Source: a virus. Taken from it: 64,000 nt of DNA. Below the pieces are notes generated by a model. It was not told the origin of the DNA, did no database searches, and saw nothing but the letters and a program-made list of their open reading frames with translations. Made by a program: the position numbers and the translations under genes. The stretch lies in IMG/VR virus record IMGVR_UViG_3300025087_000036, positions 62,001 through 126,000 of that record. The stretch is one strand, 5' to 3'. Below, piece by piece: positions 6,969 to 31,483 of this stretch (position 1 is the first letter of the stretch; every line of letters starts with the position of its first letter).

Positions 6969-7084
6969 TGTGGTCAATTGCTTCTAGGATTACCAGATTG
7001 ACCCAGGTTCAATTTAAATTCAAAGCACGATGATGGGTGTCCATCAAGACAAGGACGATTCTAACGAAGATTTAGGGGGTTATG

Positions 7085-7639
7085 ATGAAAAAGGAACTAA
7101 TTTTAGGTTTGGATATAAGTACATCGGTTGTTGGTTACACTATTCTGGATAGAGAACTCCAATTACATGATACTGGTTACGTTTCACTCAAGCAGATAAA
7201 GGGGCTTGTTCAAAAAACAGTTGCCCTAAAAGAACAACTTGAACCATATGTTGGATTGATAAATGGGGTTGCCATTGAGGAACCTCTTGTTATGTTCAAG
7301 GAGGGTTTTTCTAGGGCTCAAGTGCTGTCTCTGTTATCTCAATTTAATGGTATGGGGCAATTATTAGCTTTTACTCTTTACAATCAAGTTCCCTTCATGT
7401 ACAATGTTTCTACAGCTAGGAAACTAGCCTTTCCAGATATGAAGTTTCCAGTTGGATCAAACAGAAAAGAGATAGTGCGAAACAGGGTTGCGATGGAGTA
7501 CCCACAAATAGATTGGCTATACAAACCAAAAGCAATCAAGCCAGATGGCAGTCCGCAAATGAAGGATGAAATGTATGATCTTGCCGATAGCTTGGTTATT
7601 GCAAAATGTCATGTTATTTCATTGAACAAACAGCAATGA
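7085..7639 (+). CDS. RuvC-like Holliday junction resolvase
   Basis: 184 residues from the ATG at 7085, chosen because AGGGGG lies 5 nt upstream; the ATG at 7082 is too close. RNase H-fold signature: LILGLDIST with the first catalytic Asp near residue 10, AIEEP with the Glu near residue 68, and a C-terminal DEMYDLADSLVIA supplying the last acids. The family cuts four-way DNA junctions as a dimer. It would replace T4 endonuclease VII in debranching DNA before packaging. It lies directly upstream of primase and Mre11-Rad50, a replication/recombination block. Confidence 0.85.
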   Translation: MKKELILGLDISTSVVGYTILDRELQLHDTGYVSLKQIKGLVQKTVALKEQLEPYVGLINGVAIEEPLVMFKEGFSRAQVLSLLSQFNGMGQLLAFTLYNQVPFMYNVSTARKLAFPDMKFPVGSNRKEIVRNRVAMEYPQIDWLYKPKAIKPDGSPQMKDEMYDLADSLVIAKCHVISLNKQQ

Positions 7640-7646
7640 GGTTCTT

Positions 7647-8594
7647 GTGTATTATAACAAACAGTTGGTTGACCTTCTATCGGAGATACTTGGGTTTCCC
7701 AAGAGGTATACTCATGGCCTAGTTGAGCTTGAGTTCAACTGCCCTAGTTGCAGAAACAACAAATTCAATTTGGCTGTCAACACAGACAAGAAGAAATTCC
7801 AATGTTGGGCGTGTGAGTATCGTGGAACCATTGACAAGATTGTAAAAGAGTTTGGAACGATTCCGCAAAGAAGACTATATGAAACGATTGTTTCAAACAG
7901 TCGCATTCAGATATCCAAGCAAAATTCCAAAGTGGAACCAATATCAATAGGGTCTTTTCGTTCGATGAAACATGAATGGAAGGACAGTTTGGATTTTTAT
8001 GCTGCAAAGAGGTATCTTGCAACTAGGAAGATAGACCCCTTGTTGATTGCCAAGTGGGATATCTGTTATGCAGAAGATGGACCATACAGCAATAGGGTGA
8101 TCATCCCATCTAAAAGATTAGACGGAAAGGTGGAATACTTTGTTGCCAGAGATTTCTATGATACGGATAGATACAAGTACAAAAATCCACCCCTAAGAAA
8201 ATCAGAGATAATCTTTGGGGAGAAATTTATCGATTGGAAAAAACCAGTGATCTTAACTGAAGGTGTGTTTGATGCCATAGTGTTGCCAAACTCCGTGCCG
8301 ATTTTGGGTTCAAAAATAGAGGGGAACACCAAGCTCATCAAGACCATAGTTGCAAACAGAACCCCAATTATAATAGGGTTCGATGAAGACAAAACAGGAC
8401 TTCGCGGAAAGAAAAAAGTCGGAAAATATTTGGAAAGTTTGGGTATTACTCTTTACTTGTTACCAGAAAACGAGTATAATGATCTAGCGAAAGCATATCA
8501 AATGAAAGGAAAGGACTACCTGATATCTCTAATCAGGGGTGCTAAGAAGTATGATGAGATGGATCTAGCAATAAAATCTTTAATGATGAGGTAA
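7647..8594 (+). CDS. DNA primase (zinc finger plus TOPRIM)
   Basis: 315 residues, GTG start 7 nt after the previous stop. Residues about 28-60 form a CHC2-type zinc finger (NCPSC, then QCWAC). The TOPRIM core follows: VILTEGVFDA near residue 205 with the catalytic Glu, and IIIGFDEDKTG near 250 with the metal-binding Asps. Primases of this type make RNA primers for lagging-strand synthesis at the fork. No helicase domain is present, so a separate helicase is expected, as with T4 gp61/gp41. Confidence 0.88.
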   Translation: MYYNKQLVDLLSEILGFPKRYTHGLVELEFNCPSCRNNKFNLAVNTDKKKFQCWACEYRGTIDKIVKEFGTIPQRRLYETIVSNSRIQISKQNSKVEPISIGSFRSMKHEWKDSLDFYAAKRYLATRKIDPLLIAKWDICYAEDGPYSNRVIIPSKRLDGKVEYFVARDFYDTDRYKYKNPPLRKSEIIFGEKFIDWKKPVILTEGVFDAIVLPNSVPILGSKIEGNTKLIKTIVANRTPIIIGFDEDKTGLRGKKKVGKYLESLGITLYLLPENEYNDLAKAYQMKGKDYLISLIRGAKKYDEMDLAIKSLMMR

Positions 8595-8601
8595 GTTACG
8601 A

Positions 8602-11600
8602 GTGAAAATTTGCCATATAAGTGATATACACATACGCTTGAAAGACAGACAAGAAGAGTACATTGAAGTATTCAAGGAACTGTTCAAGATATTAGGAGAA
8701 ATCAAGCCGGATAGAATACTACTAACAGGTGATATTGTTCACTCAAAAATAACAATGTCTCCTGAATTGATCGTTGTTACTAGATGGTTTTTGAGGCACC
8801 TAGAAAAGATAGCTCCAATTGATTTGATTGCTGGGAACCATGATGTTAACACTTCAAACAAAGATAGGCTTGATGCTCTATCTCCTATTGTGGAAACCAT
8901 AGACAACACTGGAAACGGAATCAATTACTACAAAGCAACGGGACTATATCAAGTGGGAGACAGCAAATTTCACTATGGGGTCTACAGCATTTTGGACGGC
9001 AAGACAATCAACTTAAAAAAGAGTGATAAGGAAGATGGCCATGTCTACATAGCTTTGTTTCATGGGCCAGTTGTTGGGTGCAAGCTAGAGAATGGTTACA
9101 TTTTTGAAGATGCTTCAACCTCTATTAGAACATTCAATGAGTTTGATTTCGTTATGCTTGGGGACATTCACCATAGGCAATTTTTGAGAAGCAATGAAAC
9201 AGCAGCATTTTGTGGTTCCTTGATACAACAGGATTTTGGGGAAGAACTGGAAAAGGGTTTCCTGTTGTGGGATATCAAAGAGGACAAAAGCTTTACCTGC
9301 AACTTTATGAGTGTCAAAAACGATTGTGGCCTTGTGACAATTCATGCCAATGAAATTGAGTCTTTACCGGATAAGCTTCCTAGCAAGTGTAAGATTAGAA
9401 TCATATGGGAAGAGAATGTTTCTAGGTTGGAGATTCTTAGAGTAAGTGGATTGATACGGGACAAGTACAACCCACAAAGTATCCAACTAGCCTATGTTCC
9501 TGTTGCTGGAAAAATGAAGACCATCCATATTGAGGGAGAAAATCTTTCCGATCCAAATGTACAAAGATCAACCCTAAAGAGATGGTTTGATGGTAAGCTT
9601 GAATCAGATGATATTGAAAAAATATTGGAGTTGGATAAGCAGATTACGGATGGTCTGTCTACCAACCTAGAGGATTTTTCAAATTCAACTTGGGATCTGA
9701 AAAAAATGCGGATCGAAAACTTCATGTCATATGGAAGTCCAGTAGAGATTGACTTTGAGAATATGGTTGGAATAGTTGGTTTGTTTGGGCTCAATGCTTC
9801 TGGAAAATCTGTTATCATTGATGCTATAATGTATGCCTTGTTCAACAAGACAACTAGGAACATCAAGAATGAGAACTTGGTAAACAAGTACACAAGCAAT
9901 CCAACTTGTCAAGTGGATTTGGACATTACCATAGGTGGAGATGACTACCAAATTACTAGATCCACAACTAGAAAATATAAGAAGACGGGGGAGTTTATAA
10001 ATGCCAAAACAGATGTTGATTTTAAGAGGAAATCAAGTGATGGTAAATGGGAAGACTTGAAGGAAGACCAAAGGCCAAAGACAGAAAAGATCATTCGTAA
10101 TGCTATTGGAAGCTTCGATGATTTTGTGATAACGTCTTTATCTTCGCAGTCAAAGAATAACGAATTCATAAACCAAGGCCCAACCATGAAATCAGAAAAC
10201 ATGCTTAGGTTCCTTGGCCTAGATATCTATAGTAGGAAGCATGATGTGGCAAAGGATATGCTTAAGACCGTGGACTATGAGATGAAAGGACTGAATTTAA
10301 ACGGGGGGTTGGAACTAGTCAACACAACAAGGGACGATTTGAAAGAGAAGAAAACTGAATTGTCCGAGTTAAAAATTAGGGTGAACAGTATTAGCCTGGA
10401 CATAGAAGCCAATCAGGAAAAGATTGGTGACAACAAATCCCAGATAAATAGCTCAATCAAATTGAACCGTAGTCATGAGGATATAGAAAAAGACAAGGTT
10501 AAGCTGGAGGGGGAAATATCTTCTCTTGATACCACTCAAAAAAAATTGGTTGAGGACGCAAGAAAGTTAAAGGGTGATGCTGAAAAAGTTGAAGCATCTT
10601 TGCTTAGTGAGGATGCACTACGGACCCTTTATGAAAAGAAAGCAACTCACGATAAATTGAAAATAAGTGGGGACGATTTGGTTAAGAACATCGAATCAGA
10701 CAAAAGGTTGCTTAACCTATACCGTGGGGATTTATCCAAAGATGATGAGTGCCCTGTTGCATATGACCCCAAACACTCTACTTGTCCATACTTAGCTGGG
10801 CATGAGCAAAGAAAGGGTGATTGCCTAGTATTACTTTCTACTGTTGAAAAGAAGGTTGGGCAAAAGAAAACAATAGAGGATGAAATATCTTCTCTTGGAT
10901 ATGTAGTAACTGAAATAGATGACAATGATAAGAAGCTTGAGGAAGTGCAAAAGTTTACTAGTTCCCTTACCAAAATAAAACGAGACATAGAAAATACGAT
11001 TGGGTTGATTGAGTCTAAGCAATTCTCGTTGAAGTTAGTTAAAAATCAGTTGGCAGTAGCAGAAGAAAATAGGTTGGCGTTAGACAAAAATGTTGAGTTG
11101 AAAAAACAGATAGAGGGGTATGAACTACAAATTAAGGAACTTAAGAAGAGCTTAAATTTGGTGAACACTAGGATTGTTGATACGGAAAGGAGTGTGGCTA
11201 TAGTAGAGGCCAGCCTTGAAAAGCTAGAGAGGGATCTATCCATCTATGAAGAAAAAAGCAGGGGGGCAAAGTTACTTGGTGAGTACATAAGGGCATTACA
11301 CAAGGATGCAATTCCAGCTATGCTTCTTAGGGGGCACCTTTCAGTTATCAACCATGAGATCAATGTTGTCTTGTCTAGTGTGGTTGATTTTGGGGTGTTC
11401 CTAACAATGGAAGATGATTCAACAGATGTTGAAGTTGTTATGAAGTACGATATAGATGACACAAGACCAGCACAAATGGGCAGCGGTATGGAAAAGCTAC
11501 TGATAAATATGGCAATTAGGTATGCCCTGCTTTCAATAAGCAGCTTGAACAAACCTAGTGTCTGGATAATAGATGAAGGTTTCGGTGTCTTAGATTCAAC

Positions 11601-11766
11601 CAACCTATACAACGTAGCAAAGTTCTTTGACAATGTTAGGGGGGCATTCAAAAACATTATCATCATAACTCACATTGATGCCCTGAAAGATGTCGCGCAA
11701 TGGGTCATTAATGTCGAAAAGAAGGGGGGTGTTTCTTACATAAATGATGCTGTAAGGAATATTTAG
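8602..11766 (+). CDS. Fused Mre11-Rad50-type nuclease/ATPase (gp47-gp46 fusion)
   Basis: 1054 residues, GTG start. Residues 1-345 are an Mre11/SbcD-type nuclease: HISDIHI, LLTGDIVHS, AGNHDV, HGP and GDIHH metal-binding motifs in order. From about residue 365 the chain becomes Rad50/SbcC: Walker A GLNASGKS near 398, long coiled coils, a central Cys-rich turn, ABC signature GSGMEK near 960 and Walker B VWIIDEG near 987. In T4 these are separate proteins gp47 and gp46 that resect DNA ends for recombination-dependent replication. Here one uninterrupted frame encodes both. The hook is odd: cysteines at about 717 and 728 are ten residues apart instead of CxxC. Confidence 0.9.
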   Translation: MKICHISDIHIRLKDRQEEYIEVFKELFKILGEIKPDRILLTGDIVHSKITMSPELIVVTRWFLRHLEKIAPIDLIAGNHDVNTSNKDRLDALSPIVETIDNTGNGINYYKATGLYQVGDSKFHYGVYSILDGKTINLKKSDKEDGHVYIALFHGPVVGCKLENGYIFEDASTSIRTFNEFDFVMLGDIHHRQFLRSNETAAFCGSLIQQDFGEELEKGFLLWDIKEDKSFTCNFMSVKNDCGLVTIHANEIESLPDKLPSKCKIRIIWEENVSRLEILRVSGLIRDKYNPQSIQLAYVPVAGKMKTIHIEGENLSDPNVQRSTLKRWFDGKLESDDIEKILELDKQITDGLSTNLEDFSNSTWDLKKMRIENFMSYGSPVEIDFENMVGIVGLFGLNASGKSVIIDAIMYALFNKTTRNIKNENLVNKYTSNPTCQVDLDITIGGDDYQITRSTTRKYKKTGEFINAKTDVDFKRKSSDGKWEDLKEDQRPKTEKIIRNAIGSFDDFVITSLSSQSKNNEFINQGPTMKSENMLRFLGLDIYSRKHDVAKDMLKTVDYEMKGLNLNGGLELVNTTRDDLKEKKTELSELKIRVNSISLDIEANQEKIGDNKSQINSSIKLNRSHEDIEKDKVKLEGEISSLDTTQKKLVEDARKLKGDAEKVEASLLSEDALRTLYEKKATHDKLKISGDDLVKNIESDKRLLNLYRGDLSKDDECPVAYDPKHSTCPYLAGHEQRKGDCLVLLSTVEKKVGQKKTIEDEISSLGYVVTEIDDNDKKLEEVQKFTSSLTKIKRDIENTIGLIESKQFSLKLVKNQLAVAEENRLALDKNVELKKQIEGYELQIKELKKSLNLVNTRIVDTERSVAIVEASLEKLERDLSIYEEKSRGAKLLGEYIRALHKDAIPAMLLRGHLSVINHEINVVLSSVVDFGVFLTMEDDSTDVEVVMKYDIDDTRPAQMGSGMEKLLINMAIRYALLSISSLNKPSVWIIDEGFGVLDSTNLYNVAKFFDNVRGAFKNIIIITHIDALKDVAQWVINVEKKGGVSYINDAVRNI

Positions 11767-22976: not shown

Positions 22977-23291
22977 ATGAAAAATTGCCGAAGATGCGGA
23001 AAAGATGTAAATAGGGGAAATTTTTGTGATGCTTGCAGGGTAACAAGGTGTCGCCAAGAAAGAAAAAGATTTTTGGTTGAATGTAAAGGCGGCGTTTGTG
23101 AAAAGTGTGGATACAATAAGTGTGTAGGTGCATTAGAATTTCACCATCTTGACCCAAAGGAAAAAAATTACAAATTGGGGTCTGGAACAACTCGCACACT
23201 AGAAAGAGATTTAACTGAAATTGAAAAATGTATTCTAGTGTGTTTAAATTGCCACAAAGAGATACATTTTAGAATCGCTGATGTAGCCTAA
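22977..23291 (+). CDS. HNH endonuclease next to tRNA-Asn
   Basis: 104 residues from ATG 22977. Zinc knuckles CRRCG and CDAC are followed by the HNH core CEKCGYN, ALEFHHLDP and CLNCHKEIH. The last 15 nt overlap the 5' end of tRNA-Asn, so the stop codon TAA is part of the tRNA D arm. The ribosome binding site is in a hairpin loop (22956-22976), as in T4 homing endonuclease genes whose translation is held back on early transcripts. Likely a free-standing mobile gene in the tRNA array. Confidence 0.85.
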   Translation: MKNCRRCGKDVNRGNFCDACRVTRCRQERKRFLVECKGGVCEKCGYNKCVGALEFHHLDPKEKNYKLGSGTTRTLERDLTEIEKCILVCLNCHKEIHFRIADVA

Positions 23292-23359
23292 TGGCTAGGC
23301 ATTCGACTGTTAATCGAAGAGGAAACTCAATGTAGGTTCGAGCCCTACCGTCAGCGCCA
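23277..23359 (+). tRNA. tRNA-Asn(GTT), extra variable-arm hairpin
   Basis: Acceptor GCTGATG/CGTCAGC, D stem GCC/GGC, anticodon arm TTCGA-CTGTTAA-TCGAA, T arm GTAGG/CCTAC, discriminator G, CCA encoded. The variable region is 13 nt with a GAG-GAAA-CTC hairpin where Asn tRNAs normally have about 5 nt. Confidence 0.92.
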
Positions 23360-23365
23360 ATAGTG

Positions 23366-23459
23366 GGAACCTTGTGCGCGTAGGATCGTTGGAGAACGCG
23401 GTGTGGGGGTGATGACCCATGCGAAGATCTCATCAATTTGACACAGGTTCCTCTTTTTT
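23366..23459 (+). ncRNA. Structured RNA candidate 1
   Basis: GGAACCTTGTG (23366-23376) pairs with CACAGGTTCC (23442-23451) with one bulge, closing a 65-nt interior that includes a GGG/CCC hairpin. Six T follow at 23454-23459, so it could end as an intrinsic terminator after tRNA-Asn. Confidence 0.5.
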
Positions 23460-23464
23460 GAAAA

Positions 23465-23599
23465 GGTTGGCTTTGTAACGTAGACCTAGATCGCTTGCCT
23501 CATGAATGTACCCCGTTAGTCGTGCTTTGTGGGTTAACCGTCAATGGTTCCATAAGCTGGGGAAAGGGTCAGGACAAATAGCGATCTGCAAAGCTAACC
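23465..23599 (+). ncRNA. Structured RNA candidate 2
   Basis: GGTTGGCTTTG (23465-23475) pairs with CAAAGCTAACC (23589-23599), 11 bp with one G-U. Nested inside, AGATCGCT (23488-23495) pairs perfectly with AGCGATCT (23580-23587). Two nested long stems over 135 nt are unlikely by chance. The 3' end AAAGCTAACC is shared with the element at 30479-30601. Confidence 0.55.
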
Positions 23600-23606
23600 A
23601 AAAAAC

Positions 23607-23731
23607 TTGCTCCGGTAATAATATGCCTGACAAAAGTGTAGCACCATCGGGGCAGAGAAGAAATCGCCATTGGTTCGCGCACCACAAATCAGGCTCCCAT
23701 GAAAATGGTAGCGGCTAACCGCCTGGAGCAA
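23607..23731 (+). ncRNA. Structured RNA candidate 3
   Basis: TTGCTCC (23607-23613) pairs with GGAGCAA (23725-23731). Inside: GCCTGA (23625-23630)/TCAGGC (23689-23694), a CCAT-GAAA-ATGG hairpin with a GNRA tetraloop (23697-23708), and GCGG-CTAA-CCGC (23711-23722). The combination of a closing stem, nested stem and two tight hairpins makes this the best-looking RNA of the set. Confidence 0.55.
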
Positions 23732-23740
23732 AAAACTTGT

Positions 23741-23816
23741 GCCCCTGTAGCGTAGTGGAAGACGCATCACTCTTCTAAAGTGACACACACAGGTTCGAAT
23801 CCTGTCAGGGGTGCCA
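23741..23816 (+). tRNA. tRNA-Arg(TCT)
   Basis: Acceptor GCCCCTG/CAGGGGT, D stem GCG/CGC, anticodon arm TCACT-CTTCTAA-AGTGA, T arm ACAGG/CCTGT, discriminator G, CCA encoded. Confidence 0.93.
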
Positions 23817-23824
23817 AAATTTTT

Positions 23825-23900
23825 CGGGAAGTGGCGCAATTGGCGGCGCACCCGCTTTGGGAGCGGGGGGTTGCGAGTTCGAACCTCGCCTTTCCGACCA
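23825..23900 (+). tRNA. tRNA-Pro(TGG)
   Basis: Acceptor CGGGAAG/CTTTCCG, D stem GCGC/GCGC, anticodon arm CCCGC-TTTGGGA-GCGGG, T arm GCGAG/CTCGC, discriminator A, CCA encoded. Confidence 0.94.
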
Positions 23901-23907
23901 AAATTAT

Positions 23908-23983
23908 ATGGGTGTAGCTAACCGATAAAGCAAACGTCTTATAAGCGTTGATAATGTGGGTTTGACTCCCACCACCCATACCA
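23908..23983 (+). tRNA. tRNA-Ile(TAT)
   Basis: Acceptor ATGGGTG/CACCCAT, D stem GCT/AGC, anticodon arm AACGT-CTTATAA-GCGTT, T arm GTGGG/CCCAC, A, CCA. A TAT anticodon is uncommon; bacteria usually read AUA with a modified CAT anticodon. Confidence 0.92.
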
Positions 23984-23988
23984 ATCGT

Positions 23989-24065
23989 GCTTTCGTAACT
24001 CCAAATGGTAGAGTAATCGGCTTTTAACCGAATAGCTGTGGGTTCGAATCCCACCGAAAGCACCA
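23989..24065 (+). tRNA. tRNA-Lys(TTT)
   Basis: Acceptor GCTTTCG/CGAAAGC perfect, D stem ACTC/GAGT, loop CTTTTAA in a TCGG/CCGA stem, T arm GTGGG/CCCAC, A, CCA. Confidence 0.94.
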
Positions 24066-24072
24066 AAATTTT

Positions 24073-24161
24073 GCAGGTGTCACCTAGTTGGTTGATGGTA
24101 TCCGACTCTTAATCGGGTGGAAGAAATTCCCGCACAGGTTCGAATCCTGTCACCTGCACCA
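24073..24161 (+). tRNA. tRNA-Lys(CTT), extra variable-arm hairpin
   Basis: Acceptor GCAGGTG/CACCTGC perfect, D stem ACC/GGT, anticodon arm TCCGA-CTCTTAA-TCGGG, T arm ACAGG/CCTGT, discriminator A, CCA. The variable region is 16 nt with GGAA-GAAA-TTCC, abnormal for Lys. Confidence 0.92.
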
Positions 24162-24186
24162 AACTTTAAATAGAAAGAAATAGATT

Positions 24187-24390
24187 ATGACAAAAGGCGA
24201 GATCAAGAATATTTTTAAGCAACATCATGTTCAACTTGGTGCCGATGCTTTGGTGATGATTGAAGATCATCTCAAACGTGAAGTTACCTTGATGGCACAA
24301 AGATGCAAAGAGGGTAATTACAAGAGGTTGACTGTGGAACATTTTTGGGTTGCCTTGGGTAATTGGGGAGACTTTTCTAGTAAGAGGTAA
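24187..24390 (+). CDS. 67-residue protein with histone-fold-like pattern
   Basis: ATG 24187. The order short helix, loop, long helix, loop, short helix can be read as IKNIFKQHHV, then ALVMIEDHLKREVTLMAQRC, then LTVEHFWVAL. Spacing of hydrophobic residues resembles the single histone fold of archaeal-type histones (about 65 residues). No other family recognised. Located between tRNA-Lys(CTT) and tRNA-Cys. Could instead be an unrelated three-helix protein. Confidence 0.5.
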   Translation: MTKGEIKNIFKQHHVQLGADALVMIEDHLKREVTLMAQRCKEGNYKRLTVEHFWVALGNWGDFSSKR

Positions 24391-24394
24391 ATCA

Positions 24395-24508
24395 ATGAAG
24401 GTTTATGTTTTGGCCGATCGGTTCAGCTATAATGATGGCTACTATGACAAAATCGTTGGGGTTTTTTCAAATAGAGAATTGGTAGAAGAGTATACACACA
24501 TACATTAA
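24395..24508 (+). CDS. 37-residue unknown protein
   Basis: ATG 24395 just after the preceding stop, AGAGG nearby. MKVYVLADRF followed by KIVGVFSNRE recalls the 57-residue protein at 26165 (MKVYVVKVQ, EIVGIFTDKE), so probably a short paralogue of it. Confidence 0.45.
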   Translation: MKVYVLADRFSYNDGYYDKIVGVFSNRELVEEYTHIH

Positions 24509-24582
24509 GGGTAAACGATAAGTATGAGGCAAACTATCGTATATTTAAATACACGATTGATGGTCTTACAAGCACATAATTT

Positions 24583-24660
24583 GGGCATGGGCTCTCCTTG
24601 GCGGGGACTTTCGGCTGCAACCCGAATTGATATGCGGTTCGAATCCGCACATGCCTTCCA
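24583..24660 (+). tRNA. tRNA-Cys(GCA)
   Basis: Acceptor GGGCATG/CATGCCT, anticodon arm TTCGG-CTGCAAC-CCGAA, T arm TGCGG/CCGCA, discriminator T as usual for Cys, CCA. Confidence 0.92.
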
Positions 24661-24669
24661 AAAATTGTT

Positions 24670-24744
24670 GCCCCCTAGTTCATTTGGTAGAATATCCGTC
24701 TGATACGCGGAAGGTGCTGGGATCGTAACCCAGGGGGGCAACCA
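24670..24744 (+). tRNA. tRNA-Ile(GAT)
   Basis: Acceptor TGCCCCC/GGGGGCA, D stem GTTC/GAAT, anticodon arm TCCGT-CTGATAC-GCGGA, T arm CTGGG/CCCAG, A, CCA. Confidence 0.92.
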
Positions 24745-24754
24745 AAAAACTAGT

Positions 24755-24831
24755 GGGGATATAGACCAACAGGCAGAGTCAACAAACTTAAAATTTGTAA
24801 AGTTTGAGTTCGAATCTCAATATCCTCACCA
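24755..24831 (+). tRNA. tRNA-Leu(TAA) with short variable loop
   Basis: Acceptor GGGGATA/TATCCTC, D stem GAC/GTC, anticodon arm ACAAA-CTTAAAA-TTTGT, T arm TTGAG/CTCAA, A, CCA. Variable loop is only AAAGT; Leu tRNAs normally have a long variable arm. Confidence 0.85.
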
Positions 24832-24842
24832 AAAAACAATGT

Positions 24843-24918
24843 GCCCCGTTAGGCTAACTGAATAAACCAATGGTCTTCGAAACCAACATTAGAGGTTTGA
24901 ATCCTCTACGGGGTGCCA
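24843..24918 (+). tRNA. tRNA-Arg(TCG)
   Basis: Acceptor GCCCCGT/ACGGGGT, loop CTTCGAA in a TGGT/ACCA stem, T arm AGAGG/CCTCT, discriminator G, CCA. D stem is weak (GG/CC). Confidence 0.88.
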
Positions 24919-24943
24919 ACCAAAAAAGAAAGAGGTTACTAAA

Positions 24944-25222
24944 ATGACAAAGACAGAACAATTGCATGAGATTGTTGATATTAGTGATTTTTCCCTTGAT
25001 GGGGAATATCCAATCTCTCATGGCGCTGGAACAAACGATGATTTCATTGTTAAGGTTATAAGAGCCTATGGGTTTAGTGAGAATAAAATGGTTAACATAC
25101 GCTTTGATGTAAATGGCGGAAATGGACCTAGGGGGATAGACTATAATACTTTTGATGTTCCCATGCTAAAGAGAGCATCACAACTGTTTGCAGATTTGGC
25201 AAAGTATCTTGAGAAAAAATAA
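24944..25222 (+). CDS. Member of a four-copy paralogous early-protein family
   Basis: 92 residues, AGAGG upstream. Shares a layout with the proteins at 43655, 47028 and 47971: short helix, (I/L)-x-G-x-Y near residue 20, a beta-rich middle ending in an N-x-(R/L/D) strand, and a C-terminal LADLAKYLEKK-like amphipathic helix. No known domain. All four lie in the early region behind host-type promoters. Confidence 0.6.
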   Translation: MTKTEQLHEIVDISDFSLDGEYPISHGAGTNDDFIVKVIRAYGFSENKMVNIRFDVNGGNGPRGIDYNTFDVPMLKRASQLFADLAKYLEKK

Positions 25223-25246
25223 TGACCTATGGTGTAAGGAGAAAAA

Positions 25247-25321
25247 ATGGGAATCGCTATTGGACTTTTGATTGCAATTGTATTGGTCTTTTTCATACTT
25301 GAAATGGATGAGGGAGACTAG
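25247..25321 (+). CDS. 24-residue single-span membrane peptide
   Basis: AAGGAG precedes ATG 25247. The peptide is one hydrophobic helix (IGLLIAIVLVFFIL) with an acidic tail; the stop is 1 nt before the next ATG. Typical of phage membrane micro-proteins. Confidence 0.5.
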   Translation: MGIAIGLLIAIVLVFFILEMDEGD

Positions 25322-25322
25322 T

Positions 25323-25574
25323 ATGCTAAACTGGTTATACAAGATTGTCATTCCAGAACACAAACTGGTTAGGGCACTACCCATAATGTGTAACCCAAAG
25401 GAACCACTAACAGATGAGCAATTGGATGGGCTCTCTGATATCATTCGCAAGGTTCAAGCAAAGAGAAAAATCAAGAGGGCTTTATCCTTTGGGGTTTTTC
25501 CAATCAAGTTTTCCCAGGGAAAGAAGCTCCACGAAAAGGGTGTTCCTAGGTGGGTGGTTAAACTCATAACTTAG
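25323..25574 (+). CDS. 83-residue basic unknown protein
   Basis: ATG 25323 with GGGAG upstream, coupled to the membrane peptide before it. Lys/Arg-rich C-terminal half (KVQAKRKIKRAL). No domain recognised. Confidence 0.5.
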   Translation: MLNWLYKIVIPEHKLVRALPIMCNPKEPLTDEQLDGLSDIIRKVQAKRKIKRALSFGVFPIKFSQGKKLHEKGVPRWVVKLIT

Positions 25575-25620
25575 CTAAAATCAATAGGTTATAAATTTTC
25601 AGATTTTCTTCATTTTTTTG

Positions 25621-25649
25621 TTTACTTTTACCTGGGAATAGACGATAAT
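25621..25649 (+). promoter_or_regulatory. Sigma70-like promoter (TTTACT type)
   Basis: TTTTTTG-TTTACT, 17 bp, GATAAT; a diverged form of the 94-bp cassette. Drives the group at 25680-27111. Confidence 0.6.
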
Positions 25650-25679
25650 AGTCTTGTGATCAGAACAAGGAGAAAAGTC

Positions 25680-25862
25680 ATGAAGACCCAACGCAACTAC
25701 TTTCAGATTGGTGATGAAGTCTACAATCCTCCCTTCTTCTTTTGGGGAATCATTGTTGGGTTTGACGGTGAGGTTGCCATGGTTGAGGATAAAGACTGCA
25801 ACCAGTTTGAAATTGAAACCAGGGATCTGGAATTCTTTTCACCCCAATTTGTGGAGGATTGA
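25680..25862 (+). CDS. 60-residue unknown protein
   Basis: ATG 25680 with AAGGAG 7 nt before it. Small beta-barrel-like pattern (YFQIGDEVYN, GIIVGFDG, AMVEDKD), reminiscent of KOW/Tudor-like small barrels, but not assigned. First gene after the promoter. Confidence 0.5.
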   Translation: MKTQRNYFQIGDEVYNPPFFFWGIIVGFDGEVAMVEDKDCNQFEIETRDLEFFSPQFVED

Positions 25863-25863
25863 A

Positions 25864-26163
25864 ATGAAGACTTGGTTTGTTCATTGGGAGATTAACATTC
25901 CTGGTTGGGCAGATAATGAGTTGCATCACAAACATTATGGTCCATTTGCCACAAAGCACGAAGCTTTGATGAGAATGGGTTTCCTCTGCCATGGATTGTA
26001 TCGCATTTATCCTGGTGTTCATGTTGACGAATACGATACAGAAGATCTTGGCAACGGAAAACTCAAGGTGGGAAATATGGTGTTTGATTCTTTTGCCACC
26101 ATATTTTGTGATGGAAGCTCTGGAACTAGCCCCGCCATTCGTGGTATGATTGTGGAGGATTGA
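25864..26163 (+). CDS. 99-residue unknown protein
   Basis: ATG 25864 behind GGAGGATTGAA, a leader string repeated at the next gene. Starts MKTWFVHWEINIPGW; a truncated relative of this N-terminus occurs at 41752. Function unknown. Confidence 0.5.
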   Translation: MKTWFVHWEINIPGWADNELHHKHYGPFATKHEALMRMGFLCHGLYRIYPGVHVDEYDTEDLGNGKLKVGNMVFDSFATIFCDGSSGTSPAIRGMIVED

Positions 26164-26164
26164 A

Positions 26165-26338
26165 ATGAAAGTTTATGTTGTAAAAGTACAACCATATTGT
26201 GAGGACGAAGAGACTTGCAGTTGTCATGATTGGGCTTTTGAAATTGTTGGTATCTTTACAGACAAAGAAAAAGCAAAAACAGAAGCCATGACCACTTTTC
26301 CACCTTCTTTGGTTGAAGAATACGAGGTTATCGACTAA
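26165..26338 (+). CDS. 57-residue unknown protein, related to 24395
   Basis: ATG 26165 behind GGAGGATTGAA. Contains a CEDEETCSC acidic Cys cluster and EIVGIFTDKEKA, seen in shorter form at 24395. The stop overlaps the next ATG (TAATG). Confidence 0.5.
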   Translation: MKVYVVKVQPYCEDEETCSCHDWAFEIVGIFTDKEKAKTEAMTTFPPSLVEEYEVID

Positions 26339-27111
26339 TGGCAAAGATTCTCATAACTGGTGATGTGCATGGCAGTCCTATACAACACCTAAATTATAGG
26401 AAGATTAAGCCTGGAACTCTAACGGAAGATGATTTTCTCATTATCCTTGGCGACTTTGGGGTTATCTTTGGAAAACCCTGTAGTGAAGAAAGGTATATCC
26501 TGGATTGGTTTAATCGTAAACCATGGACAACCTTTGTGGTTGGTGGAAATCACGATGATTGGGATAGGCTTCGGGTTTTACCTTATGAGGATACTCCTTG
26601 GGGGAGATTGCAAAGGATTAGCCACAGGGTGTTTTTTATTCCCAACGGCACCATCCTGTATATTGGTGATAGGAAGATTTTTTGTATGGGTGGGGCAATG
26701 TCCACCGATAGATACATGAGGGTTGAGGGAAAAAATTGGTGGGCAGGAGAGATTGCCACTAATGAGGAAATGCAGCGTGGGGTGGACCTGCTGGACAGCG
26801 TAGATTGGAACGTGGACTACGTTCTAACCCACACCATGCCGTCAGAATGTGTTAGCAAGTTTACCGAATCCATGGGATATCATGAAGATAGGATTAATGA
26901 CCCCATGGCAAGGTACTTTTCCTTCCTTACTAAGCAAGGAATCAAATTCAAGGGGTGGTATTGTGGTCACTTTCACAAGAATCAGAAGTTTGGTGATGTG
27001 AATGTGATTTACCACAATATTGTTGACCTTGATACTGGACAGCTTGTGTTCAAACAACCGGATGATGTGATACACCAATATCCGAAAAACATTTTTTGGA
27101 AAAATGCTTGA
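26338..27111 (+). CDS. Metallophosphoesterase
   Basis: 257 residues. All five calcineurin-type motifs are present in order: GDVHG (near residue 8), GDFG (near 40), GGNHDD (near 72), LTHTMP (near 163) and GHFHK (near 204). These bind two metal ions and cleave phosphodiesters or phosphomonoesters. Substrate unknown; its presence in the tRNA/RtcB region makes an RNA-end substrate possible but unproved. Translationally coupled to the preceding gene. Confidence 0.85.
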   Translation: MAKILITGDVHGSPIQHLNYRKIKPGTLTEDDFLIILGDFGVIFGKPCSEERYILDWFNRKPWTTFVVGGNHDDWDRLRVLPYEDTPWGRLQRISHRVFFIPNGTILYIGDRKIFCMGGAMSTDRYMRVEGKNWWAGEIATNEEMQRGVDLLDSVDWNVDYVLTHTMPSECVSKFTESMGYHEDRINDPMARYFSFLTKQGIKFKGWYCGHFHKNQKFGDVNVIYHNIVDLDTGQLVFKQPDDVIHQYPKNIFWKNA

Positions 27112-27136
27112 CAAATGGTCCCGGTTGTGTTATTCT
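27108..27136 (+). promoter_or_regulatory. Sigma70 promoter
   Basis: TTGACA, 17 bp, TATTCT. The leader contains a perfect 7-bp hairpin ACTAGGT/ACCTAGT (27150-27169) before the gene at 27203. Confidence 0.7.
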
Positions 27137-27202
27137 TATGAGTGTAGAAACTAGGTTGCAATACCTAGTGTGTTTTAAACAAACAATGAAAGAGGTAAGA
27201 CT

Positions 27203-27412
27203 ATGAAGAGTGCAAGGTTTACTAGGAATAGGGTTCGGTTTGTGGTTGCTGAAAACGGTGTTCGTGCATATGATCGTGAATACTGGAATGGGCATAGTTT
27301 TGAGTATGCTATCTATGATAAAAAGCGTATGAAGAAGCTCATTTCCAAACACAGTGAGGATATCCTTGCTGCGGCAAAAAAGGCTAAGATCAAGAACTTT
27401 GTTCTTGCTTAA
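27203..27412 (+). CDS. 69-residue basic unknown protein
   Basis: ATG 27203 with AGAGG upstream. Arg/Lys-rich (MKSARFTRNRVRF; KKRMKKLISK), ending in an amphipathic helix. Monocistronic behind promoter 27108. Could bind nucleic acid; not assigned. Confidence 0.5.
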   Translation: MKSARFTRNRVRFVVAENGVRAYDREYWNGHSFEYAIYDKKRMKKLISKHSEDILAAAKKAKIKNFVLA

Positions 27413-27486
27413 TTAGCCACAGGAGAGTGGGGTGTGAATTAGCGCCCCTCTCCTAAAAAAAAAACAAGGAGTGCAAAGTCCAAAAC

Positions 27487-27552
27487 AAATTGAGCGTAGA
27501 CCGTATGGAAGTCGGTAAAAAGTAAAGACCCCTCTTCACCTATGCTCAATTT
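27487..27552 (+). ncRNA. Three-way-junction RNA candidate
   Basis: AAATTGAGCGTAG (27487-27499) pairs with CTATGCTCAATTT (27540-27552): 13 bp including one G-U. Inside are two hairpins, ACCG/CGGT (27500-27516) and GTAAAGA/TCTTCAC (27522-27539), filling the whole interior. Confidence 0.6.
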
Positions 27553-27612
27553 TCTAAAGAAAAGTTGAATAATTTTTGGATTTTTGTAGGAGATTGGTGT
27601 ATATTTAGAAAT

Positions 27613-27703
27613 GTGACGGTGGTTTGAGTCAGATAACACTTTGACATATAAACCATGGAAACGTTCCTAATCACATAACAAAAGCAAACGAAACTGCCGT
27701 CAC
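27613..27703 (+). ncRNA. Junction RNA candidate
   Basis: GTGACGGTGGTTT (27613-27625) pairs with AAACTGCCGTCAC (27691-27703): 13 bp with two adjacent G-U pairs. The interior has GTCA/TGAC (27628-27645) and GGAA-ACG-TTCC (27657-27667). The G-U pairs inside a perfect helix argue for RNA rather than DNA function. Confidence 0.6.
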
Positions 27704-27766
27704 TTCAAAACAAAATGCCAGTTTTTCGGGTGGTTCTGGCTTGCCAAAAACCTCCGTTCAAAATTT

Positions 27767-27842
27767 GGGGATGTAGCTTAATTGGGAAAGCATTTGACTG
27801 TCAATCAAGAGAGAGTGGGATCGTAACCCATCTTTCCCGCCA
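27767..27842 (+). tRNA. tRNA-Asp(GTC)
   Basis: Acceptor GGGGATG/CTTTCCC (one T-T mismatch), D stem GCT/AGC, anticodon arm TTTGA-CTGTCAA-TCAAG, T arm GTGGG/CCCAT, discriminator G, CCA. Confidence 0.88.
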
Positions 27843-27859
27843 ACAAAAGGAAAGATGAA

Positions 27860-28171
27860 ATGAGCATTGTTAGGCACACAAAAAGCGGTGTTGTGATTGA
27901 TGTCACAAACAGAGGAAAAAACCTAACGCTTATCTTTACAAATGCTCTTTGCGCAGGTCAGCCTTGGACTTGCCATGTTCCAGAGGAAATCGTTGGAAAA
28001 CCACTTACGATGAATTATGGGTTTGTAGACCTAGATGAAATGATGGAGTATGCCGGAAGGTTTGAAGATGGCAGCGTTAGCCACAGGAATGAAGAGTTGA
28101 TTGATATGATCTACATGATCAAAGAAGCACAATGGGATCTTGAAGATCAAATGGAGTTCATGGGGGTTTAA
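27860..28171 (+). CDS. Unknown 103-residue protein
   Basis: ATG 27860 shortly after the tRNA-Asp CCA, using AAAGGAAAG as binding site. Beta-rich N-terminal half, acidic helical C-terminal half. The last codons overlap the 5' acceptor strand of tRNA-Val. Not recognised. Confidence 0.5.
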   Translation: MSIVRHTKSGVVIDVTNRGKNLTLIFTNALCAGQPWTCHVPEEIVGKPLTMNYGFVDLDEMMEYAGRFEDGSVSHRNEELIDMIYMIKEAQWDLEDQMEFMGV

Positions 28172-28235
28172 CATAACGGAAGTGTGATTGGTCTACACCC
28201 AATTAATGGGGGTTCAATTCCCTCAGCCCTCACCA
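28162..28235 (+). tRNA. tRNA-Val(TAC)
   Basis: Acceptor GGGGGTT/AGCCCTC, D stem ACA/TGT, anticodon arm ATTGG-TCTACAC-CCAAT, T arm GGGGG/CCCTC, A, CCA. Position 33 is C instead of the near-universal T, and the 5' end overlaps the upstream gene. Confidence 0.8.
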
Positions 28236-28256
28236 AAAATATTTTCCAGTTTTTTG

Positions 28257-28285
28257 TTTACATTCTGGAAAAAGTGTGGTAAACT
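28257..28285 (+). promoter_or_regulatory. Sigma70-like promoter (TTTACA type)
   Basis: TTTTTTG-TTTACA, 17 bp, TAAACT, opening a transcript that begins with structured RNA rather than a gene. Confidence 0.55.
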
Positions 28286-28362
28286 AAACCAAGAAAATGG
28301 GGTAACAAAAAACGAGTCCTGCAAAGACTTGAAACAAATTGCCCGCCCTTTTGCAGAGGGAA

Positions 28363-28404
28363 ACCGTTGACAGTTCCATATAGGGCTGTCTTATACATGA
28401 CGGT
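28363..28404 (+). ncRNA. Nested hairpin RNA candidate
   Basis: ACCGT (28363-28367) pairs with ACGGT (28400-28404) and GACAG (28369-28373) with CTGTC (28386-28390). Confidence 0.4.
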
Positions 28405-28441
28405 GGTATTTTCATCTTATTTGCCATGTGTAGAAAAAGTA

Positions 28442-28478
28442 AAGTTACGCAATTTGCATAACGCAGCCTGCGTAACTT
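28442..28478 (+). ncRNA. Hairpin RNA candidate
   Basis: AAGTTACGC (28442-28450) pairs perfectly with GCGTAACTT (28470-28478); the loop contains a small TGC/GCA pair. Confidence 0.45.
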
Positions 28479-28537
28479 CAAATGGATGAGCGGCAACGGC
28501 GGTGGTGTTGCAGCAGACTGTAAAAACTTTTACAGAC

Positions 28538-28545
28538 TATTTATA
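28538..28545 (+). promoter_or_regulatory. Late-promoter-like TATTTATA
   Basis: Located 15 nt before tRNA-Tyr, which is followed after 2 nt by an HNH gene. It could drive both. Confidence 0.45.
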
Positions 28546-28560
28546 TATGGGGTGAATTGT

Positions 28561-28656
28561 GGGAGAGTAACAACAACGGCCTGTAAAGCCGCCCTGCCCA
28601 ACAACTGTTGTATGGACTCTGGCAGTAAGTAAGTTCGAATCTTACCTCTCCCACCA
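28561..28656 (+). tRNA. tRNA-Tyr(GTA), D arm apparently missing
   Basis: Acceptor GGGAGAG/CTCTCCC, anticodon loop CTGTAAA in a CGGC/GCCG stem, long variable region with TGCC/GGCA, T arm GTAAG/CTTAC, A, CCA. Only about 10 nt separate the acceptor from the anticodon stem, too few for a normal D arm. Confidence 0.7.
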
Positions 28657-28658
28657 AA

Positions 28659-29300
28659 ATGGATTATGTTTGTGAAAAATGTGGATTGGGGTTCTCTGGG
28701 TATATAAGGTCTGGTAGATTGGTTAGGTGTAGTTCTTGTAAAAGAAAAGTTGTCCACAAAAAGGAAACCGGAGAAATAACTAATCTCTTTGATCTTTCTA
28801 CTAGAACCATTGGAAAAATTTTAGCAAGACTCAATATGTCGTGTTCTATTTGTGGGTGGAATGTTGCAACTTGTGATCTTCACCACATTGTTTCAAGAAA
28901 GAAAGGTGGGTCAAATCACCACACAAATTTAGCTTGTGTTTGTCCAAATTGTCATAGAGCAATTCACAACGGAAAGTTAACCACAAGCATAACTTTACAA
29001 GAACAAATTGGTGACAATTGGTTGAAGGAATATGCACCACCATTAAAAATAACCAACTTGCCAAAAAAAGAATTTGTCTGTAAAACATGCGGTGGCAGAT
29101 TTGAGCTAAAAAGGAAAAATTCCAAATATTGTTCTACTAAATGCTTTGGGATATCACAAAGAGAAAAAGGTATCGTTATACCGTCCAAAGAAGAGTTGCA
29201 GATACTTATAGACAACAATTCTTGGGTTGCAATCGGAAGGATGTTTGGGGTTAGTGATAATGCTGTTCGCAAATGGGCGATAAGGCGTGAGATTTTATGA
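28659..29300 (+). CDS. HNH endonuclease with C-terminal helix-turn-helix
   Basis: 213 residues. Zinc knuckles CEKCG and CSSCK, HNH core CSICGWN, LHHIVSRKKGG and CPNCHRAIH, a further CKTCG...CSTKC pair, and a C-terminal helix-turn-helix (VAIGRMFGVSDNAVRKWAI) for site binding. The ATG is 2 nt after the tRNA-Tyr CCA, so no separate binding site exists unless tRNA sequence supplies it; tRNA processing would leave an almost leaderless mRNA. tRNA-Ala follows 6 nt after the stop. Confidence 0.85.
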   Translation: MDYVCEKCGLGFSGYIRSGRLVRCSSCKRKVVHKKETGEITNLFDLSTRTIGKILARLNMSCSICGWNVATCDLHHIVSRKKGGSNHHTNLACVCPNCHRAIHNGKLTTSITLQEQIGDNWLKEYAPPLKITNLPKKEFVCKTCGGRFELKRKNSKYCSTKCFGISQREKGIVIPSKEELQILIDNNSWVAIGRMFGVSDNAVRKWAIRREIL

Positions 29301-29306
29301 TAACAT

Positions 29307-29377
29307 GGGGGATCCAGAGGGCTGGTCCTATCGCTTGCACCGATGGCTAAAGGGATCGTTACCCTTATCCTCCACCA
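29307..29377 (+). tRNA. tRNA-Ala(TGC)
   Basis: Acceptor GGGGGAT/ATCCTCC, loop CTTGCAC in an ATCG/CGAT stem, T arm AAGGG/CCCTT, A, CCA. D stem AGG/CCT is short. Confidence 0.87.
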
Positions 29378-29441
29378 AACTGACATGGGAGTAGGTAAGC
29401 TATCTAACGAATAGAAACCGATAGCTGGTTTAGAAAAAAGC

Positions 29442-29470
29442 TTTACAAATAGTTCTAGGTGTGTTATGGT
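29442..29470 (+). promoter_or_regulatory. Sigma70-like promoter (TTTACA type)
   Basis: TTTACA, 17 bp, TATGGT. The expected start is at the hairpin GGTGTT/AACACC (29476-29495). Confidence 0.5.
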
Positions 29471-29581
29471 ATAGTGGTGTTGTGGTATAAACACCGGGTT
29501 CAGGCAACAGCAATTGTGGTATATAGGATCGCAGATCATTGAAAACCGCAAGCGTTGAAAATCGCAATAGCTCGTATTAGT

Positions 29582-29622
29582 TCTTGTCTGTTGATGCTAA
29601 CGCTGTTAGGTGTAGGACAAGA
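29582..29622 (+). ncRNA. Nested hairpin RNA candidate
   Basis: TCTTGTC pairs with GACAAGA at the ends; CTAAC (29597-29601) pairs with GTTAG (29605-29609) inside. Confidence 0.45.
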
Positions 29623-29629
29623 TGTTCAT

Positions 29630-29690
29630 AATACTGCCGTCTGGGACAAGACCCGACCCAGGTTGGTACGAAAACCCAACACAGAGTATT
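29630..29690 (+). ncRNA. Compact three-way RNA candidate next to tRNA-Glu
   Basis: AATACT (29630-29635) pairs with AGTATT (29685-29690). Inside are CTGGG/CCCAG and GTTGG/CCAAC hairpins. It ends 2 nt before tRNA-Glu. The second hairpin resembles a T arm, so this could be a shrunken tRNA. Confidence 0.5.
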
Positions 29691-29692
29691 TT

Positions 29693-29768
29693 GGCCGCAT
29701 CGTCTAACAGGTAAGGATGGAAGACTTTCAATTTTTCGATAGGAGTTCGAGTCTCCTTGCGGCTACCA
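29693..29768 (+). tRNA. tRNA-Glu(TTC)
   Basis: Acceptor GGCCGCA/TGCGGCT, D stem GTC/GAT, anticodon arm GAAGA-CTTTCAA-TTTTC, T arm AGGAG/CTCCT, A, CCA. Confidence 0.9.
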
Positions 29769-29770
29769 AA

Positions 29771-29878
29771 TTTCCTGGTGGTGAAAAAGAGGGCATGGGA
29801 TGGCATCCTGAAAAAGCCTAAGCCTACTAGCAGGGTAAAACAGTGACATTGCCAATCAGATCGTGTTAGACCAGGAAA
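29771..29878 (+). ncRNA. Structured RNA candidate
   Basis: TTTCCTGGT (29771-29779) pairs perfectly with ACCAGGAAA (29870-29878), closing about 90 nt that include a GGAT/ATCC hairpin. Confidence 0.5.
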
Positions 29879-29899
29879 GCAATTTTGGACGTATAAAAC

Positions 29900-29936
29900 A
29901 CTAGCAAGAGGCTGACGTACCTCACTATAAGCTAGT
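29900..29936 (+). ncRNA. Two-stem hairpin RNA candidate
   Basis: ACTAGC pairs with GCTAGT at the ends and GAGG (29908-29911) with CCTC (29920-29923) inside. Confidence 0.4.
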
Positions 29937-29948
29937 TACCAAACCCAT

Positions 29949-29979
29949 CTTGGTGGATAATCTGGTCTAGTCAACCAAG
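29949..29979 (+). ncRNA. Hairpin RNA candidate
   Basis: CTTGGT pairs with ACCAAG, loop 19 nt. Confidence 0.3.
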
Positions 29980-30009
29980 CATGATGGGGTCCCAAAACCT
30001 TGAGCAATC

Positions 30010-30054
30010 GGAGAGATAAAAGCCACGATTAAGTTCGGAAAAACAAGGCTCTCC
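30010..30054 (+). ncRNA. Hairpin RNA candidate
   Basis: GGAGAG pairs with CTCTCC at the ends of a 45-nt segment, just before the binding site of the gene at 30087. Confidence 0.35.
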
Positions 30055-30086
30055 ATATTTACCTTAAGAAAAAGGATGGTTCTGAA

Positions 30087-30392
30087 ATGAGCGAACGTAA
30101 AGAAAAGTTTTTGGATTTGATTTCCGTGGTTGATACTTGGATCGTTGAGGTTGCAGTTATCGTGGCGTTGTTCCTTTGGTTTCTGTTTTTCTCCTGTGGT
30201 GGATATGCAAGCACAGAGGGATACACAATTAGGAGAGATTACTGTTCTGGTGATTCTCCAAATCCCAATGTCTTTTTTGATGTTGTTGAAGTAAGGAAAA
30301 TGGGTGAAGATAGAAAAGTTTACACAACTTTTGACATTGATGATGCAATCAGAGTGATGAAGGAAATTGCGGCAAATGGACAAGTACGCTAA
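30087..30392 (+). CDS. Small membrane protein
   Basis: 101 residues, AAGGA upstream. One strong transmembrane helix near residues 15-38 (VEVAVIVALFLWFLFFS), a short Cys/Gly turn, then a soluble C-terminal region. Lies between RNA elements and tRNA-Met. Not recognised. Confidence 0.5.
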   Translation: MSERKEKFLDLISVVDTWIVEVAVIVALFLWFLFFSCGGYASTEGYTIRRDYCSGDSPNPNVFFDVVEVRKMGEDRKVYTTFDIDDAIRVMKEIAANGQVR

Positions 30393-30396
30393 AGTT

Positions 30397-30469
30397 TGCG
30401 GGTTGGGGAAGTGGTCATCCCGTTTGGCTCATAACCAAAAGATCGTGAATTCGAATTTCACACCCGCTA
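30397..30469 (+). tRNA. tRNA-Met(CAT), no encoded CCA
   Basis: Acceptor TGCGGGT/ACCCGCT with the first pair mismatched, D stem GGG/CCC, anticodon arm TTTGG-CTCATAA-CCAAA, T arm GTGAA/TTCAC, A73, then CTT instead of CCA. A mismatched first pair is an initiator-like feature, but the anticodon stem lacks the GGG/CCC of initiators. Could also be Ile(CAU) if lysidine-modified. Confidence 0.82.
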
Positions 30470-30478
30470 CTTTGCAAA

Positions 30479-30601
30479 GGTTAGATACGTTGGAGATTGA
30501 TGCTTACACCATCAACCAAACATTAGACTACTCTAAGGTATTGGGAAGTGTATGACCCAATATACATTGGCATGAGATTGTTTGGCGTTGTAAAGCTAAC
30601 C
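30479..30601 (+). ncRNA. Four-way-junction RNA candidate
   Basis: GGTTAG (30479-30484) pairs with CTAACC (30596-30601). Three consecutive perfect hairpins lie inside: TTGATG/CATCAA (30497-30515), TTAGA-CTAC-TCTAA (30523-30536) and TATTGGG/CCCAATA (30539-30562). The 3' end AAAGCTAACC equals that of the element at 23465-23599. Confidence 0.6.
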
Positions 30602-30611
30602 ACTAAAATTA

Positions 30612-30640
30612 CTAAGGCAAGTGCCGGTTGCTTGTCTTAG
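30612..30640 (+). ncRNA. Hairpin RNA candidate
   Basis: CTAAGGCAAG pairs with CTTGTCTTAG, 10 bp with one wobble. Confidence 0.45.
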
Positions 30641-30647
30641 AAGAAAA

Positions 30648-30715
30648 CACCGCCGATCACGTTGCTTCGGTCGGGATAAAAACGGTGGGGTAAAAGTCCT
30701 ACGTTTAGAAGCAAC
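30648..30715 (+). ncRNA. RNA candidate with two mutually exclusive folds
   Basis: CACCG/CGGTG (30648-30687) encloses CCGATC/GGTCGG. Alternatively GTTGCTTC (30661-30668), within that loop, pairs with GAAGCAAC (30708-30715). The folds overlap as in a pseudoknot or switch. Ends 7 nt before tRNA-Gly. Confidence 0.4.
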
Positions 30716-30722
30716 CAGTTTT

Positions 30723-30796
30723 GCCTTGTTAATACAACGGAAGTATCTTTGGTTTCCACCCAAAAGATATCGGTTCGATCCCGATACAAGGCTCCA
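30723..30796 (+). tRNA. tRNA-Gly(TCC)
   Basis: Acceptor GCCTTGT/ACAAGGC perfect, D stem ATAC/GTAT, anticodon arm TTTGG-TTTCCAC-CCAAA, T arm ATCGG/CCGAT, discriminator T, CCA. Confidence 0.94.
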
Positions 30797-30841
30797 AATA
30801 CACCTATGTTATATACCCCTTGGGCGATCACTAACTATGGG

Positions 30842-30955
30842 CTGGAAGATCAGATCCAGGGTGAACATTTTAGACTTGGAGTGTTTTCCGAATGTTAAAA
30901 ATCAGGTCAGTGTGTTGCCAGTGTGTAGGAGTTGTAAACAGCATTGGCAACACAC
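30842..30955 (+). ncRNA. Series of three hairpins
   Basis: CTGGA/TCCAG (30842-30859), AACATT/AATGTT (30864-30896), and GTGTGTTGCCA/TGGCAACACAC (30910-30955, 11 perfect bp) in tandem, before the Trp tRNA remnant. Confidence 0.5.
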
Positions 30956-30965
30956 AAAAACTTGT

Positions 30966-31020: not shown

Positions 31021-31032
31021 ATTCCTTCCACA

Positions 31033-31474: not shown

Positions 31475-31483
31475 AAATTAATT

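Follow-up and report, generated by a model that had tools for sequence, protein, structure and literature searches.

The gene at positions 8602 to 11766 of the window, the 64-kb stretch analysed here as part of a 151,986-base and possibly incomplete IMG/VR virus record, encodes, with a probability of about 0.88, both subunits of a phage Mre11-Rad50 complex in one polypeptide, which would perform gp47/gp46-like end resection feeding recombination. The fusion as such is real, conserved and already described, while the fresher part of the analysis lies in its repeated re-splitting in related viruses.

The forward strand carries a single stop-free frame of 1054 codons with a GTG start. Residues 1-191 correspond to the calcineurin-like phosphoesterase family Metallophos (Pfam, E=1.6e-12) and residues 2-214 to a metallo-phosphoesterase family of the PHROGs (1e-26). 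Further downstream, AAA_23 (Pfam, 4e-17) covers residues 368-595, SMC_N residues 366-1041, and the SbcC-like PHROG_77 (1.7e-63) residues 329-1050. In addition, PDB sequence matches of the protein comprise SbcC/Rad50 as well as Mre11/SbcD. Since frame and Pfam, PHROG and PDB matches were all found in these places, the observation on which the preliminary description was built holds: the continuous frame of 1054 residues exists, and its two modules, with all catalytic residues in place, were rightly identified as Mre11 and Rad50. The features of the gene and its upstream neighbours are as follows (window coordinates, strand, identity and basis).

7082-7639, +, RuvC-like Holliday-junction resolvase (PHROG_159, 8e-5)
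7647-8594, +, DNA primase, directly upstream of the fusion (PHROG_47, 1e-40)
8602-11766, +, Mre11-Rad50 (SbcD-SbcC / gp47-gp46) fusion, 1054 aa (Pfam, PHROG, PDB, AlphaFold, Foldseek)
8602-9321, +, Mre11 phosphodiesterase domain, about residues 1-240 (Pfam Metallophos, model elements, catalytic residues)
9160-9171, +, GDIH motif, residues 187-190, nearly invariant in the alignment; GHxH with Asp for the first His
9181-9207, +, short loop after GDIHHRQ, residues 194-202; split site in nine related genes, intact in the window
9322-9531, +, Mre11 capping domain, about residues 241-310 (model strands E244-248 to E293-298; PDB Mre11/SbcD nuclease and capping)
9553-9657, +, helix-loop-helix, residues 318-352 (H318-329 and H335-352 in the model)
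9658-9687, +, linker, residues 353-362, a lower-confidence block between the helix-loop-helix and the first Rad50 strand, of conserved length
9688-11766, +, Rad50 part, residues 363-1054 (Pfam AAA_23 and SMC_N; PDB SbcC/Rad50 matches)
9778-9810, +, Walker A GLFGLNASGKS, residues 393-403 (alignment of 104 sequences)
10222-11298, +, coiled coil with antiparallel arms at residues 541-714 and 729-899; the hook tip spans 715-728 (model)
11479-11577, +, ABC signature GSGMEK and Walker B VWIIDE (alignment)

The N-terminal part constitutes a complete Mre11 with phosphodiesterase, capping and helix-loop-helix domains, and in other Mre11 proteins the latter binds the root of the Rad50 coiled coil. The bipartite ABC ATPase of the Rad50 part is complete as well, comprising Walker A, the SGME signature, Walker B (DE991-992), the D-loop and the H-loop (H1024); within Walker A, G401 and K402 are conserved in 104/104 sequences and S403 in 101/104. 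The hook tip features C717 and C728 without a CxxC, C728 being invariant in alignment A4, and a CxxC occurs somewhere within residues 550-900 in 46 of the 104 aligned sequences. The full-length AlphaFold model used here was built with 58 sequences (mean pLDDT 83, pTM 0.52), a single-sequence model with a pLDDT of 38 having been discarded; because the pTM is only 0.52, the model does not fix how nuclease and ATPase are placed relative to each other. Foldseek searches with this model gave Mre11-Rad50-Nbs1 and SbcCD as best matches in the PDB. Among viral proteins, full-length giant-virus fusions came first (Tupanvirus, 1.5e-68; Harvfovirus, 6e-59), accompanied by further matches in Yasminevirus, Catovirus and Tenacibaculum phages.

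The genomic context is that of DNA replication and recombination genes. A primase lies directly upstream of the fusion in 85 of 100 loci, and a RuvC-like gene is found upstream in 53 of them. Moreover, the same virus genome encodes a RecA homologue (E=1e-57) and a family-B polymerase (4e-51), but no second AAA_23 ATPase, and hence no separate Rad50, was detected in the 151,986-base, possibly incomplete record. Given RecA, the polymerase and the adjoining primase and resolvase, a role like that of T4 gp47/gp46 would be the simplest reading. Two fused chains would most likely assemble into the customary M2R2 complex, in which the nuclease domains dimerise and ATP closes both Rad50 heads on DNA, while the helix-loop-helix of each chain would grip the coiled-coil root of its own or of the partner chain. 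ATP hydrolysis would then open the nuclease for resection of DNA ends, and the resulting 3' single strands could be handed to the viral RecA-type recombinase, which would use them in repair and in recombination-dependent replication. No biochemistry of these phage fusions was found in the literature.

Several other genes of the window deserve mention in their own right. The prohead protease (Peptidase_S77, 59957-61636) is interrupted by an intein extending from Cys81 to about Asn443, with Ser444 as the next residue; a Pfam intein-splicing match covers 98-430 but lies under the curated cut-off. The terminase large subunit (51834-55937, 1367 aa) shows terminase matches at 6-190 and 1108-1285, separated by an insert of ~900 aa that starts with Cys, displays a weak LAGLIDADG match and is probably a large intein. 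Furthermore, 26 tRNA genes are located at 23277-41733, most of them clustered among short ORFs, and an RtcB-like RNA ligase is encoded at 41800-42966.

Structure prediction near residues 345-370, where the junction had been surmised, yields the helix-loop-helix, a linker of about ten residues and then a Rad50 strand, and both sides of the junction are modelled confidently with the 58 sequences. The 55-residue stretch across the junction measures 54-57 residues in most relatives listed and is longer in two of them, with 59 residues in L012 and 62 in Tenacibaculum phage PTm1. The preliminary description had proposed that a fixed 1:1 stoichiometry and a covalent link would constrain the opening of the complex on DNA ends. 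The stoichiometric argument adds little because canonical Mre11-Rad50 complexes are already 2:2. That the link hinders opening is doubtful too: in the normal complex the C-terminus of Mre11 lies ~28 Å from the N-terminus of Rad50, a distance spanned by 9-12 residues (PMC3175470), which is the linker length here. Since the joined termini are already close, the covalent link probably constrains little, and both arguments are further weakened by the window protein being another member of the kind reported by Yoshida et al. 2011. Conservation of the link across a very diverse family could still be taken to mean that it alters the mechanism, for example by forced cis pairing of nuclease and ATPase or by limited opening. 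Such an effect is unlikely, however, in view of the short linker, of relatives in which the chain is broken elsewhere, and of the purifying selection seen on each half in the cases tested; the re-split relatives suggest that an unbroken single chain is not essential.

Within the nuclease, all active-site residues are present (D8, H10, D44, N79, H80, H154, D188 and H190), and the calcineurin-like motif set DxH, GD, GNHD, H and GHxH is complete, its last member reading GDIH. The catalytic residues are nearly invariant across the 104 aligned sequences, and D188 is present in every aligned fusion without a gap at that column, whereas the unfused proteins of T4, Twort and WIL-1 feature GHFH or GHYH where the fusions have GDIH. 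Owing to this change from GHxH to GDxH, metal binding or specificity might differ. The fused protein could even have lost its nuclease activity and serve as a tether or DNA-bridging machine, as might be read from the GDIH of the aligned fusions and from the same replacement in Mimivirus R555 (PMC3175470). This is very unlikely, though, as Asp is also able to bind Mn, and the near-invariance of the other catalytic residues, including H80, H154 and H190, is not expected to persist without catalysis. Two more calcineurin-like phosphoesterases are encoded in the window apart from the fusion, at 26338-27111 and 35366-36148.

IMG/VR searches that took as query the window protein, or just its nuclease half, returned no matches, but a scan that used an alignment of four fused proteins as query matched at least 600 stretches, at least 587 of which encode relatives of the window family. 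Cultured phages carrying the fusion comprise Microcystis phage Mel-JY01 and Tenacibaculum phage PTm1. A plasmid search revealed no fusion, and the three good matches in GTDB genomes all lie in metagenome-assembled genomes, on short contigs of possibly viral origin. Nuclease and ATPase share one frame in 98 of 100 fetched loci, a fraction biased towards full-length fusions by the choice of loci from two IMG/VR scans according to best E-value; in the two exceptions, L008 and L107, the split falls within the nuclease. Listeria phage LMTA-57 contains one frame of 1009 aa (L005 2920-5949) and its relative WIL-1 two separate genes (L223 1851-4881), the single frame having arisen either by recent fusion or through an indel introduced by sequencing. 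Although this pair illustrates that a sequencing or assembly error may join adjacent genes elsewhere, such an error in the window, or the stop/start at the junction that the preliminary description feared to be hidden, is extremely improbable given one-frame genes with a conserved linker in 98 of 100 independent loci and in cultured Mel-JY01 and PTm1. The fusion is no peculiarity of a single virus but is widespread and stable, both in this phage group and among giant viruses of the R555 type.

Accordingly, the novelty implied at the outset has to be given up: Mimivirus R555 and twelve other Mre11/Rad50 fusions were described in 2011, with a Bacillus phage, plasmids, bacteria and eukaryotes among the carriers (Yoshida et al. 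2011, PMC3175470), at least 587 relatives exist in IMG/VR, and giant-virus fusions are the best viral structural matches. The window gene is a well-conserved member of this described family. Like R555, it encodes Mre11 followed by Rad50 in one chain, retains the capping domain and the helix-loop-helix, possesses a linker of 9-12 residues, shows the replacement corresponding to His206 to Asp and comes from a genome in which no separate Rad50 was found; R555-like genes are, moreover, abundant in aquatic viral fractions and DNA (PMC3175470), a further point of likeness. On the other hand, R555 is 1351 aa long with a long coiled coil, compared with 1054 aa and ~170 residues per arm in the window protein, which resides in a phage genome with a primase-RuvC neighbourhood. 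T4 gp47/gp46 and the Twort and WIL-1 recombination exonucleases share the domains and the presumed role in recombination-dependent replication, but are encoded by separate genes, carry the GHxH motif and are placed far off in the phylogenetic tree, which was built without giant-virus sequences. Bacterial SbcD/SbcC and cellular Mre11/Rad50 resemble the window protein in fold and catalytic motifs, yet they are separate subunits with longer coiled coils and a CxxC zinc hook.

In nine records the fused gene is cut directly behind GDIH, within the active site of the nuclease (split A), both halves being seen in seven of them (L003, L008, L107, L166, L192, L193 and L195). The loci are listed below.

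L003, 3956-8166, split A
L008, 5001-8310, split A
L107, 3304-6544, split A
L192, L193, L195, L166/L194, L129/L197 and L137/L196, other split-A records

L008 is the nearest relative of the unsplit window gene in the tree (support 100). Its N-terminal ORF ends 51 residues past GDIHGRQ, and its second ORF picks up the sequence shortly ahead of the GSTIQQ motif, from where it runs through Rad50. The same cut is found in the 484-kb phage LR756508 (L003), where a TnsA-like nuclease ORF lies between the halves; in general, endonuclease-like genes separate the halves in some split-A records and are absent in others. The ends of the N-terminal halves, referred to as tails, are acidic in 9/9 cases (net charge -4 to -15) and comprise 27-51 residues, often with ..ELExYxxxGWEIV, while the starts of the C-terminal halves, referred to as heads, are basic in 7/7 cases (+1 to +7) and comprise 15-19 residues. 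By comparison, unsplit loops at this site have a mean length of ten residues and a mean charge of +0.4. A tail DNA pattern built from L129, L137 and L166 matched exactly at eight places in the viral collection; six of these lie in split N-terminal halves, three of them new (L192, L193 and L195). Searches for tail homologues in cultured phages yielded nothing better than E=9, those with the N-terminal halves of L008 and L003 retrieved L008 itself or nothing, and tail plus head weakly resembles DUF2812 (E=0.064).

An empty and an occupied site can be compared directly in L066 (5646-5681) and L192 (reverse strand, 7287-9696). L066 is unsplit, and its two flanks align collinearly with those of L192 at 87-93% DNA identity, but L192 contains 2.4 kb in place of 36 bases of L066, so that the loop REDETVAYAG gives way to tail, cargo and head. 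This cargo encompasses a 159-aa ORF, DNA methyltransferase-like pieces and a zinc-finger/endonuclease-like ORF. L193, with about 80% DNA identity to L066, harbours a cargo unlike that of L192. ORFs in the cargo of L192 are related to those in the cargo of L195 (35% over 164 aa). Strong purifying selection acts on each of the two halves, with dN/dS of 0.02-0.06 where estimable and some synonymous distances near saturation. As judged by well-supported branches, the six split-A rows on the tree require at least five changes, and therefore the cut was made, or lost, repeatedly.

The cause of these cuts looks like mobile DNA. We lean slightly towards a repeated mobile-cassette target after GDIH, each insertion bringing a docking tail and head with which the nuclease would be put back together without any splicing of RNA or protein. 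Two other origins were considered and rejected: on inspection the tails lack an initial Cys/Ser and no splicing motif was seen, which speaks against an intein, and programmed frameshifting is out for L003, L192 and L195 because their halves are separated by entire ORFs.

The ribonucleotide reductase of Aeromonas phage Aeh1 sets a precedent for surviving the insertion of an endonuclease gene, and one paper reportedly assigned its NrdA tails to assembly. Aeh1 NrdA is split by mobE and active as two chains (PMC2988022). The NrdA-a/MobE/NrdA-b arrangement is comparable to the split-A relatives only, in that a DNA-metabolism gene is broken in a critical region, an endonuclease gene acts as breaker, and new tail and head peptides are of opposite charge. 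It differs in the host gene and in the reversed charges, the tail being basic and the head acidic, and no similar sequence was recognised by eye between the NrdA and split-A tails.

In twelve loci the gene is cut at a different place (split B), between the phosphodiesterase domain and the remainder:

L117, 3971-7569, split B
L124, L125, L130, L131, L134, L147, L149, L156, L157, L162 and L187, split B

In these loci the C-terminal part comprises capping domain, helix-loop-helix and Rad50 as one ORF where the contig reaches, and this ORF starts where the capping domain starts. In the four loci examined, a small ORF of 102-144 aa lies between the parts. The five split-B loci placed in the tree form one clade.

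Taken together, the window gene is evidence of the fusion as a stable and widespread phage state, and the main use of its product would be in structural studies, where it offers a compact single-chain Mre11-Rad50. The wider lesson comes from its relatives, in which the fused gene has been cut again at new places, including the inside of the active site. If the tails and heads of split A dock, these genes would support a general way to survive the insertion of endonuclease genes and would, in addition, provide natural split-protein tags.
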